NCBI GenBank assembly: GCA_028286785.1
Contig: JAQBQX010000019.1
Span: forward strand, 1 to 32,253
From: Candidatus Adlerbacteria bacterium
GTDB taxonomy: Bacteria > Patescibacteriota > Minisyncoccia > Phycocordibacterales > SBAW01
Reading direction: 5' to 3'
DNA: 32,253 nt
The stretch's first letter is position 1, and every line of letters begins with the position of its first letter. A program made the position numbers and the translations under genes. Below, in pieces: positions 22,199 to 26,118 of the stretch. Under the pieces are notes generated by a model. It had not been told where the DNA came from and ran no database searches. It worked only from the letters and a program-made list of their open reading frames with translations.

Positions 22199-22564
22199 TT
22201 AAGTATTATTCGTGCAAAAGTTCAAAACAGTGAAGTGCACAGACATGGATGCTTCGCGCCCAAAACGGTCTTTTGCTGCGACCGTAATACTAGTATACCC
22301 CGGGTGTGGAGAGAGTGTAGCACTAAAATGTCCTGCCGCATCCGTGTAGGCAGGGCGACCGTTAATAGTCAAAAAAGCTATATTTTGAGCCATTCCTGAG
22401 ACCACGACCGCAACGCTTGATGTGGCGGATCCACTGCGAGGGAAGTCGAGGCTGATTTCTGGGCCTGACAAGATCCGACGACCTTCAAATAATCCGTAGC
22501 CGCCGACTATAACTATAGCCACCAGTACTAACGCCCATTTGTACCAATTATTGTTCCTCATCAT
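22199..22564 (-). CDS. Small membrane-anchored protein with Ig-like (glucodextranase domain-B-like) extracellular domain
   Basis: [30 protein letters not shown] anchor followed by a beta-rich domain; overlaps the ftsK 3' end by about 17 bp. Confidence 0.6.
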
Positions 22565-24761
22565 GCGTGCTCTCTGTCTTGGCGCCCAATACTTCGCGTG
22601 GTTTTGCGCCATCAGCTGGGCCAATGACTCCACGCTCTTCAAGTACGTCCATCAACCGCGCTGCGCGAGAATATCCGACTCGAAGCTTGCGCTGGAGGTA
22701 CGAAGTCGACGCTTTGCCTGCCTCTAGTACTGCGTTGCGCGCAGCTTCGTACATGTCGTCGTCAATTTCGTCCTCGTCGCTCGTGATACCGGTGTTGCCA
22801 AGTCCGCCTGCGGTAGGGCCGCCAGTGGGGCCGGTGATATCGATAGGAAGTTCCGAATCGTTATGCTTTGCAATAAAGTCGGTGACCTTTTTTACTTCGT
22901 TTTCGCTGATGTAGGCGCTCTGGAGACGTATAGGTTTGCCCATTTCGCCTGAAAGGTAGAGCATGTCGCCCGCACCCAAGAGCTTTTCTGCGCCTGCTTG
23001 GTCCAAAATGGTGCGCGAGTCGATCTGTGAGGCAACCTGCAGTGCTATGCGGGCCGGAACGTTTGCTTTGATGAGGCCGGTAATGACATTAACTGATGGT
23101 CGCTGTGTCGAAAGAAGCAGGTGAATGCCCACAGCGCGGCTCATCTGGGCCAAACGCACAATTGCCGCTTCAAGTTCACGTGGGAATGTCTGCATGATGT
23201 CGGCCAACTCGTCGATGACAATCACGATGTACGGCATTGCTTCAGGGATCTTGTCGCCCTCGGCTGCGCCTCCTTTGCGGCGTAGTTTTTCCAAAGACGG
23301 GGTAAGGACGTTGGTATGGTACGACTCGATGTCGCGCACGCGTTCAGACTCTAATATATTGTATCGGCGTTCCATTTCTTTGCCCGCCCAGCGCAGCGCC
23401 ATGACTGCTTTTTTAGGGTCGGTGATAACTGGGGTGAGTTGGTGCGGGATAGTGTTATAGAGGGTCAACTCCACACGCTTGGGGTCGATCATCAAAAAGC
23501 GCAGCTGCTGCGGCCCGCAACGGTACAAAAGTGAGGTGATGATAGTGTGGATGCTCACCGACTTGCCCGAGCCCGTTGCCCCTGCGATGAGTCCGTGGGG
23601 CATTTTGGCGAGGTTGGCAAACTGCGACCCGCCTGCAATGTCGCGGCCAAGTGCTACCAACAACGGCTTCGGCGATGCGGCAAACTCAGGTGCCTCAAGG
23701 AGCGTGCCCAAGCCCACTGTAACTTTTGAGTGGTTCGGGACTTCGATGCCTACCAGGGATTTGCCAGGGATAGGTGCCTCAATGCGTACGGGGTGCGCCG
23801 CAAGAGCAAGTTCGAGGTTAGTCTGGAGCGATACAATTTTTTGCAGGCGCACACCTTCGGCGGGTTTGATGGCATAGCGGGTGACCGATGGGCCGATTGA
23901 AATCTCGTCGAGCTCAACCACAATTCCAAAGTTTTGAAGCGTGCGTTTGATGATGTTGGCATTTGCTTTAACGTCACCAACACCCGGGCGGCCTTTGTCA
24001 CGCTCAAGGAGTGACAAAGGTGGCGGGGTGTACGTGCCCAATAGCGACTTCAAAAGGTCTGCAGTATTGACCGCTGCCACAGCGGCAGTAGCAGGTTCGC
24101 GCAGAGGCTGCTGGTGCGGGACGGGCACATCATCTTCCTCGTCGTCTGCATCTGGTGCCTCTTCGTGCTCCTCGTCTTCTGCGTCCACACGGAAGCCGCT
24201 CACGGCAATTCCGTCATCTTCTGGTTCGGGAGTTTTGCCAAATAACCCACGCACTCCACGCACTGTGCTTGCGCTCAAGCCGGTAAAGACATGGACCGGG
24301 ATCGAGCCTTCCAACAACATGAGCAAAGATACCAATGTGAGTCCGCCCATGAGTATGACCGATGCGTATATATCAAAGTAATGAATGGCAGTTTTGCCCA
24401 GCATATCGCCCACTAATCCGCCCTTGCCGCTGACAATAGCCACAAACCCTAATCCAGACAATATAAAGAGAATGCTCGAAAGGCTCTTAAACCAGTCGAA
24501 GCCGGGTTTTTCTTCGCGCAGAGCAGTCCCTGCCAAAACAAAAAAGAGCACTGGCAACAGAAAATATCCGATACCCACCAGATGTACTATGCCTTGATAG
24601 GTGTCTATGCCCGCGACCCCTGCGGTGCCAAATGCGGCCAGGGTCAGGAAGCAACCAAGGATCGAAAACACTACGGCTAAAATTGCACGTTTTGTACCGT
24701 CGGGCATGCCAGATGTTGCCGCGCGGGCGTTTGCTGACTTAGAATTTTTCTTACGCGCCAT
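22548..24761 (-). CDS. ftsK: DNA translocase FtsK/SpoIIIE
   Basis: N-terminal TM helices, acidic linker, GATGSGKSVSIHTIITSLLYR Walker A, C-terminal winged-helix gamma domain. Confidence 0.96.
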   Translation of the reverse strand: MARKKNSKSANARAATSGMPDGTKRAILAVVFSILGCFLTLAAFGTAGVAGIDTYQGIVHLVGIGYFLLPVLFFVLAGTALREEKPGFDWFKSLSSILFILSGLGFVAIVSGKGGLVGDMLGKTAIHYFDIYASVILMGGLTLVSLLMLLEGSIPVHVFTGLSASTVRGVRGLFGKTPEPEDDGIAVSGFRVDAEDEEHEEAPDADDEEDDVPVPHQQPLREPATAAVAAVNTADLLKSLLGTYTPPPLSLLERDKGRPGVGDVKANANIIKRTLQNFGIVVELDEISIGPSVTRYAIKPAEGVRLQKIVSLQTNLELALAAHPVRIEAPIPGKSLVGIEVPNHSKVTVGLGTLLEAPEFAASPKPLLVALGRDIAGGSQFANLAKMPHGLIAGATGSGKSVSIHTIITSLLYRCGPQQLRFLMIDPKRVELTLYNTIPHQLTPVITDPKKAVMALRWAGKEMERRYNILESERVRDIESYHTNVLTPSLEKLRRKGGAAEGDKIPEAMPYIVIVIDELADIMQTFPRELEAAIVRLAQMSRAVGIHLLLSTQRPSVNVITGLIKANVPARIALQVASQIDSRTILDQAGAEKLLGAGDMLYLSGEMGKPIRLQSAYISENEVKKVTDFIAKHNDSELPIDITGPTGGPTAGGLGNTGITSDEDEIDDDMYEAARNAVLEAGKASTSYLQRKLRVGYSRAARLMDVLEERGVIGPADGAKPREVLGAKTESTHDEEQ

Positions 24762-24811: not shown

Positions 24812-24839
24812 TGTACAACCTGGAAGCGCTTGTTATACT
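24812..24839 (+). promoter_or_regulatory. Putative extended -10 promoter of the HTH gene
   Basis: TGtTATACT (24831-24839); weak -35 TGTACA at 24812-24817, 16-bp spacer. Confidence 0.55.
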
Positions 24840-24852
24840 CAAGGACACAGTC

Positions 24853-24929
24853 TGTCTTAGAAATGTCTTTCAAATCCTTAAAGGACAGCAATAAGACAAG
24901 TGTAAAAGACGCATTGAAAATCAATGTCT
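24853..24929 (+). promoter_or_regulatory. Two consecutive hairpins in the HTH gene leader, the second covering the start codon
   Basis: TGTCTTA(24853-24859)/TAAGACA(24892-24898) enclosing TGTCTTT(24864-24870)/AAAGGACA(24880-24887); then AGA..CATTGA(24907-24917)/TCAATGTCT(24921-24929) containing ATG 24924. Confidence 0.6.
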
Positions 24930-25664
24930 GATAACACCTCTAATTTTCATACATTTGCCTTACAGTCAGGCCTTTTTAAAGGACACGACGATTGGTATTT
25001 TTGCTATTTAAAGTCAGAACGGATCGCCCACGTGCTCGCTGTTTTGGCCCAGAGCTCTCCACACCCTGACCTAGACCGTTTGATTGAACTTGCGTCGTCT
25101 CTGCCGGAATCAATCGTGTACTTTGCTGCCTCTGAAGTGGTGCCTTCTGTATTGTTGGCCGAAGTATTTGTGCTCCTTTCCGCGATGCGTCTTAGCGGTA
25201 CTAAGAACCTCATTCGGCAAGAAAACGTTTCAGTACTTATAAGTGAACTCCAACACATTGCTCAATTAATGGGGAACAGCAGCCAAGTGTCGCCGTTTGT
25301 GACTGCCGAGGATTTTGCCGTGCCGTTTGCAACGGCCCCTGACCAAATACCTAAAAGACTTTCTATGCCACCAACCTTAGCCGAAGCGGGAGTTCCTATA
25401 AAGGACATCTATAAAGGACATTTAAAAAGGCAGGCAGGGCCCGTCCCACGCCCCTCTAAAGACCAGGAAGATCGGGCTGCCATAATCCGCGATTTTGTCC
25501 TTTCAAATAAGGGGGTTTCTATAAAAGACATTTCTAAGGTAGTGCGAAACTGTAGTGAGAAAACAATCCAGCGCGAATTGGGTGCGCTTATCCAACAGGG
25601 ATTGGTTAAAAAAATAGGGGAGAGGCGGTGGAGCGTATACGTAGGCAGTGCTTCGGCGCAGTAA
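24924..25664 (+). CDS. Uncharacterised protein with C-terminal winged-helix HTH
   Basis: C-term AIIRDFVLSNKGVSIKDISKVVRNCSEKTIQRELGALIQQGLVKKIGERRWSVY looks like a DeoR-like wHTH; N-terminal ~150 aa unassigned. Confidence 0.8.
   Translation: MSDNTSNFHTFALQSGLFKGHDDWYFCYLKSERIAHVLAVLAQSSPHPDLDRLIELASSLPESIVYFAASEVVPSVLLAEVFVLLSAMRLSGTKNLIRQENVSVLISELQHIAQLMGNSSQVSPFVTAEDFAVPFATAPDQIPKRLSMPPTLAEAGVPIKDIYKGHLKRQAGPVPRPSKDQEDRAAIIRDFVLSNKGVSIKDISKVVRNCSEKTIQRELGALIQQGLVKKIGERRWSVYVGSASAQ
25396..25421 (+). repeat. 13-bp perfect tandem direct repeat CTATAAAGGACAT x2 within the HTH coding region
   Basis: 25396-25408 and 25409-25421 identical; third copy with one mismatch at 25519-25531 (CTATAAAAGACAT). 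Confidence 0.95.
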
Positions 25665-25695: not shown

Positions 25696-25719
25696 TACCT
25701 TTATCCACAAGGTATTTTT
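25696..25719 (+). terminator. Weak rho-independent terminator after the HTH gene
   Basis: TACCTT-TATCCAC-AAGGTA followed by T5. Confidence 0.5.
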
Positions 25720-25746
25720 GCACCTTCCACCCCCTGTACCTATAAT
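25718..25746 (+). promoter_or_regulatory. Sigma-70 promoter of the S-layer-like gene leader
   Basis: TTGCAC (25718-25723), 17-bp spacer, TATAAT (25741-25746); predicted TSS about 25753. Confidence 0.75.
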
Positions 25747-25752
25747 GGTACA

Positions 25753-26118
25753 TAGTGGTTGAACCCCATTCGGGCTATAAGCCTGTGTGGGGCAGAATGC
25801 CAGGTTCGTTGACAATTTCATAATCAAACACCTTCATGAAAGACGCAGGTAAGATGTGCGCTCTTTTTGCGTCTATAAATAGTACGTGCTCGCACACCAG
25901 GAATCTTCCTTGTTCCGTATTGACCGCATGACCGATTCCGCCTCACATCTTGCTACCAACGCCTTCACATCTCGCTTGCCTCTTCGCGCTCCATCCTTCC
26001 TTTAATAGGAAAGGTGGTGACGAGGAGAGAGCGAGCGGGAGGGCAGGTAGGTTATCAGTGCTGTTCCATTTATTCGTAGGATTACAAGTAAATTATTATT
26101 CGTTCGTTTAGTTACCTT
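25753..26118 (+). ncRNA. Long structured 5' leader or independent structured RNA
   Basis: Three local structures: three-way junction 25761-25807, hairpin 25841-25874 with possible pseudoknot to 25891-25896, long hairpin 25961-26044. Confidence 0.55.

Follow-up and report, generated by a model that had tools for sequence, protein, structure and literature searches.

Conserved word arrays at a winged-HTH regulator gene of Candidatus Adlerbacteria point to an old self-controlling switch with two targets

DeoR-type repressors of E. coli act through several distant operators per target, and in the lac and gal systems intragenic operators (O2 in lacZ, OI in galE) assist the operator at the promoter. 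For RGG proteins and G-quadruplexes, a form of self-control has been described in which the nucleic-acid motif that takes part in the regulation also codes for a region of the protein (PMC11789052). Here we consider a regulator gene of Candidatus Adlerbacteria, located in a stretch of 32,253 nucleotides (hereafter the window), in which copies of a short word, AAAGGACA, and of its variants accompany the core promoter, the leader and the coding sequence. We regard it as probable that these words are operators of the gene's own winged-HTH product, serving repression at the core promoter, auxiliary sites in the leader and within the gene, and a second promoter that belongs to an RNA unit. A literature search, outside of which most subscription journals lay, found no description of the regulator gene, the word, the RNA unit or the circuit. 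The features of the regulator locus are as follows.

22548-24761, minus strand: ftsK-like gene, divergent neighbour with a common intergenic region (ORF; identity by reading)
24834-24839, plus strand: -10 box TATACT, extended by TG at 24831-24832 (like geometry in 27/38 close leaders)
24840-24847, plus strand: putative operator word CAAGGACA directly 3' of the -10 box, touching the promoter, its position conserved in ortholog leaders
24853-24858, minus strand: inverted leader word TGTCTT (inverted leader words occur in relatives too)
24864-24870, minus strand: inverted leader word TGTCTTT (sequence inspection)
24880-24887, plus strand: leader word AAAGGACA (word type conserved order-wide)
24893-24898, plus strand: leader word AAGACA (sequence inspection)
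24904-24911, plus strand: leader near-word AAAAGACG (sequence inspection)
24924-25664, plus strand: regulator gene, 246 aa (ORF; AlphaFold2 model; orthologs in relatives)
24972-24985, plus strand: CTT TTT AAA GGA CA, codons 17-20 (LFKG) and the start of codon 21, holding AAAGGACA at 24978-24985 (synonymous sites nearly frozen)
25284-25457, plus strand: linker coding sequence, in which the intragenic words are concentrated (pLDDT about 50-78)
25400-25407, plus strand: intragenic word AAAGGACA, read as I-K-D-I
25413-25420, plus strand: intragenic word AAAGGACA, translated as Y-K-G-H and spaced 13 bp from the copy before it
25496-25503, minus strand: inverted word TGTCCTTT in the winged-HTH coding region (no separate conservation shown)
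25519-25531, plus strand: near match CTATAAAAGACAT, where the winged HTH has its conserved S-I-K-D-I

Beyond the stop codon of the regulator gene, a DnaA-box-like TTATCCACA, followed by AGGTATTTTTGC, lies at 25701-25709, and a DnaA-like box stands no more than 160 nt after the stop in 29/38 close orthologs, mostly as TTGTCCACAGGGTATTTTTGC. A TATAAT follows this box, and then about 370 nt up to the next large ORF; on reading alone, the stretch (25742-26118) may be a further promoter or RNA unit.

The cluster was first pointed out in a sequence-only reading, and re-inspection of the window found every copy of AAAGGACA and both near matches where that reading had placed them. The five exact copies, four forward and one inverted, are all that the 32-kb window contains, and all fall within the regulator locus. 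About 0.02 copies had been expected per 620 bp, a figure that the shuffle mean of 1.05 per window bears out, and the cluster is indeed far above chance in the comparison with shuffled windows if AAAGGACA is fixed in advance. The same cannot be said when any 8-mer is permitted, as clusters of at least five copies then arise at 0.017 per shuffled window and one of 60 dinucleotide shuffles had one; given that AAAGGACA was picked after looking, the window alone provides merely suggestive, moderate significance. A genome-wide frequency equal to that at the locus, which would have refuted the proposal, was not found: the own genome (581 kb, incomplete) holds 25 copies, against 17 of the reversed control word, with one more cluster, on contig C29; clusters are confined to two loci, the regulator gene and the cca locus described below. 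The true unit, T(A/C)AARGACA with TAAARGACA as its 9-base form, extends beyond the 8-mer: although the search pattern did not include it, a T stands two bases 5' of the AARGACA core in 90% of the words in leaders and 80% of those late in the coding sequence. By this wider unit CAAGGACA, the AAGACA at 24893, AAAAGACG at 24904 and the inverted TGTCTT at 24853 and 24864 belong to the array. The interpretation given by the sequence-only reading, in which the protein binds the words and autoregulates, is supported, its binding part by inference; what that reading missed was the wider consensus, the core-promoter geometry and the second target.

The regulator is predicted by AlphaFold2 (mean pLDDT 86) to consist of a helical N-domain (aa 5-119), a low-confidence linker (121-178) and, as anticipated from the translation, a C-terminal winged HTH (179-241). 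Its gene was found in 135/147 genomes sampled around the source genome, nearly always in single copy, and the named relatives are mostly Candidatus Adlerbacteria. The recognition-helix and wing stretches SEKTIQREL and GERRWS.Y are almost invariant across the order, in step with the nearly invariant word. Homologs with a changed wing, GDKRWRRY, occur in other orders of the class (L305-L322) and mostly have no leader words, which is consistent with a joint change of word and protein; a few of them (L307, L322) retain TGTCC/GGACA elements. Structurally the winged domain resembles BlaI-, HlyU- and SqrR-type domains, and the S23 helical-bundle family structure 2rld also matches the regulator (TM 0.75 by target), with a weak E-value of 0.09. 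The regulator of the window has no Pfam match above the cut-off. HTH_DeoR, the Pfam model matched by most members, is matched weakly by 47/67 relatives (best E 1.1e-6) and Penicillinase_R by 15/67. Membership of the DeoR family was rejected, as the window protein has no above-cut-off DeoR-like HTH and its architecture is not the N-terminal HTH followed by a C-terminal sugar-phosphate-binding domain, the HTH being located at 179-241 of 246 and the N-domain being all-helical. Also set aside were the BlaI/MecI family, as whole-protein homology is absent and the alignment is confined to the winged-HTH part (TM by query 0.20-0.24; profile comparison with 1p6r, E 0.082), and LexA, for which LexA_DNA_bind was found in 2/67 members only and no peptidase domain was found.

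Loss of the word in orthologs with the same protein would have spoken against the proposal; instead, leaders of orthologs with only 41-53% protein identity keep the word and have little common sequence apart from it. In the last 110 nt, AAGACA occurs in 56/70 leaders against 3.6 expected, and AGGACA in 42/70 against 2.0. Within the close group, the word directly abuts the -10 box (TATACTC-AARGACA) in 27/38 leaders, and in distant families inverted half-words stand on both sides of it (TGTCCTATATATAATGGACAT). In 247 genomes this flanked -10 composite was matched 31 times, in 30 places, and its reversed control once. The regulator gene lies no more than 1.5 kb away at 27 of these places; the three that remain include the cca locus described below. 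Conservation of sites at a gene's own promoter across orthologs is a criterion for an autoregulatory transcription factor, and it is met here. Tandem copies are often 10-13 bp apart, with a spacing that is loose and not strictly helical, which a flexible linker between domains would fit. The palindrome TGTCYTNNARGACA was considered as a general operator and discarded, for it occurs in just 3/35 genus genomes and is not the rule.

Inside the coding sequence, the sequence-only reading had proposed to look for conservation of the word at synonymous sites, and such conservation is present. At codons 17-20 the close orthologs use CTT in 36/38, TTT in 38/38, AAA in 37/37 and GGA in 36/38, the last against a background of 12% for GGA, and the following codon varies. 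Forward words in the coding sequence number 135 in close orthologs, against 53±5 after synonymous shuffling within the gene, and 133 against 54±5 in distant orthologs, so that shuffling loses most of them. These word and synonymous statistics do not model the relatedness of the sequences and are to be taken as indicative. The regulator gene carries about 6-8 words per kb, a neighbouring control gene 0.5-0.7, and in close orthologs the linker (17.9 forward words per kb) equals the leader in density, with 0.2 per kb in the N-domain. Linker words occupy two frames, giving K-D (KDI) and K-G-(H/Q), and the third frame is rare because the usual preceding TA would give a TAA stop. It could be argued that selection maintains the KGH and KDI peptides for their role in the protein and that the words are a by-product of this and of chance, as the linker has recurrent K, G and D residues and synonymous-shuffled genes still carry 53 words; the 2.5-fold excess over these shuffles, the frozen wobble bases of codons 17-20 and the identical word in non-coding leaders and at the second promoter leave this explanation very improbable. 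Synonymous constraint, the use of two frames and the common flanking T together argue for a nucleotide-level function of the coding words, and on the best reading the KGH/KGQ and KDI peptides of the disordered linker are largely the translation of operators in two frames, the operator function itself being inferred.

Nucleotide-level function need not mean DNA. The regulator or another factor might bind AARGACA repeats in the mRNA and control its translation or decay, and AAGGA may in addition resemble a Shine-Dalgarno sequence. The sense-strand bias in close orthologs (75:18 in the leader, 98:10 in the linker) agrees with this, as do the start of the first word near the expected 5' end of the transcript and, by reading, the ability of inverted TGTCYTT to pair with the word in several leaders. 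However, AAAGACA, which is no Shine-Dalgarno sequence, is as frequent in leaders as AAGGACA, distant families have words flanking the -10 box itself, the regulator carries a winged HTH, and the second locus has its words 5' of the -10 box, outside the RNA and in the opposite orientation. Control solely at the RNA level is therefore unlikely in our judgement, and we retain DNA operators as the preferred explanation, with the reservation that the sense-strand bias is stronger than a DNA model needs, which makes an added role at the mRNA level possible.

In 35 genus genomes, 64 triple-word clusters were counted, of which 60 lie at the regulator gene or the cca locus, and the 4 found elsewhere equal the 4 control matches. 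The second of these loci has the following feature.

L001:10290-10560 (contig C29 of the own genome): second word array and unannotated structured-RNA unit with terminator, after cca (once per genome across the order)

This unit has the order TTATCCACA-N-TGTCCTTTACA-TGTCYTTTA-N-(-10). The 250 nt or so downstream of the -10 show better folding than their shuffled versions, with a mean z of -3.6 against -0.6 for an upstream control; the terminator hairpin is part of this stretch. The exact pattern occurs once per genome in 60/297 genomes, with no control matches. Compensatory changes in the RNA unit were seen only between close pairs (7 and 4 pairs), and an alignment of seven sequences by sequence alone was poor. 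In an Rfam search of 10 loci only tRNAs reached the gathering score, so that no known family (6S, tmRNA, RNase P or other) was recognized, and transcription of the unit is an inference. The words here are spaced in tandem by 11-13 bp as at the regulator, and this spacing, together with their position and orientation, fits DNA better than RNA. Between two of them TTTACA sits at the position of a -35 box, and on this reading the words would occupy the -35 and the spacer. Words are also found at the 3' end of cca, and in three further loci (L201, L206, L358) within its coding region, where they encode peptides of the IKDIKD type and lie some 1.1 kb away from the RNA promoter. A further inverted word pair of the own genome, TATAAAGGACATTTATAGTGTCCTTTAGGACA, has yraN on one side and a tRNA-Pro gene on the other (C29:22851-22879, L001:7852-7880); as no such array occurs in the G006 or G023 stretches, it was rejected as a third conserved target and seems local and specific to the own genome.

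Both arrays might also be read by a different transcription factor that controls the regulator gene and the RNA unit alike. No binding data exist for the regulator, and in two draft assemblies, G062 and G113, the second unit is present although no regulator was detected; four others (G097, G120, G127, G136) lack regulator and words together, a correlation across genomes that, with these two exceptions, would give only partial support to the pairing. Yet the strongest arrays are at or inside the regulator gene in nearly every genome, and word and winged HTH are conserved over one order, the GDKRWRRY homologs elsewhere being mostly without leader words, and a separate factor thus appears to us a little less likely even than control at the RNA level. 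Binding of the words by the regulator itself is strongly inferred rather than demonstrated, as EMSA and footprint data are lacking.

Words for replication or segregation (origin, partition or uptake words) were considered as well, owing to the DnaA box beside the second array and the distance of 26-37 kb between this array and dnaA in three same-genus genomes. The GC skew speaks against an origin: in G006 the minimum falls at dnaA (about 284 kb) and the array at 247.9 kb, 36 kb away, and in G167 minimum and array (about 268 kb vs 307 kb) are some 39 kb apart; the minimum of G023 is a broad one that extends close to the second unit. A DnaA-box cluster was not found at the second array, which was accordingly rejected as the chromosome replication origin, and uptake words would be numerous and scattered, unlike the 25 copies in the own genome. 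We see very little room for any such role.

Returning to operators of the regulator itself, the following mechanism is proposed. Winged-HTH heads on flexible linkers would bind TAAARGACA copies that overlap their own core promoter, beside or around the -10 box, and occupancy of the core promoter would most simply repress transcription. Oligomers may form through the N-domain, which is likewise inferred, and leader, codon 17-21 and linker copies would be auxiliary sites that stabilise a multi-headed complex through tandem occupancy or looping; the remoter copies, inside the regulator gene and at the cca end, could raise occupancy or permit looping. The regulator would also control the second promoter, driving the unannotated structured-RNA unit next to cca. 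A more far-reaching version, in which the regulator controls its own gene and one structured RNA as a core circuit throughout the order and the linker is largely a translated operator array in two frames, is conceivable, though we hold it with slightly less than even confidence.

Regulators of the reduced, mostly uncultured Patescibacteria are poorly known, and one for which a binding word can be inferred, along with a set of about two conserved targets, allows specific tests in vitro without culturing. In this case a disordered part of the protein seems to be shaped by selection on operators, and the circuit draws attention to a conserved RNA unit whose function is unknown.

Among described systems, the DeoR type is similar in the weak HTH_DeoR matches of most members and in having several distant operators per target; it differs in its N-terminal HTH, where that of the regulator is C-terminal, and in its sugar-phosphate-binding domain, which the regulator lacks; the dense short direct repeats within the regulator's own gene are a further difference. 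With BlaI/MecI the regulator shares a winged-HTH fold, found among the top structural matches, and the Penicillinase_R matches of some members, whereas overall homology is missing, the HTH is C-terminal and no sensor or protease partner was seen. The parallel with RGG proteins is limited in that the latter are RNA-binding proteins acting with RNA G-quadruplexes (PMC11789052), in place of a winged HTH with inferred DNA operators. Like lac O2 and gal OI, the words would be operators within coding sequence, here by inference, that aid an operator at the promoter; unlike them, they occur in many copies within the regulator's own gene, concentrated in the sequence that encodes its disordered linker.
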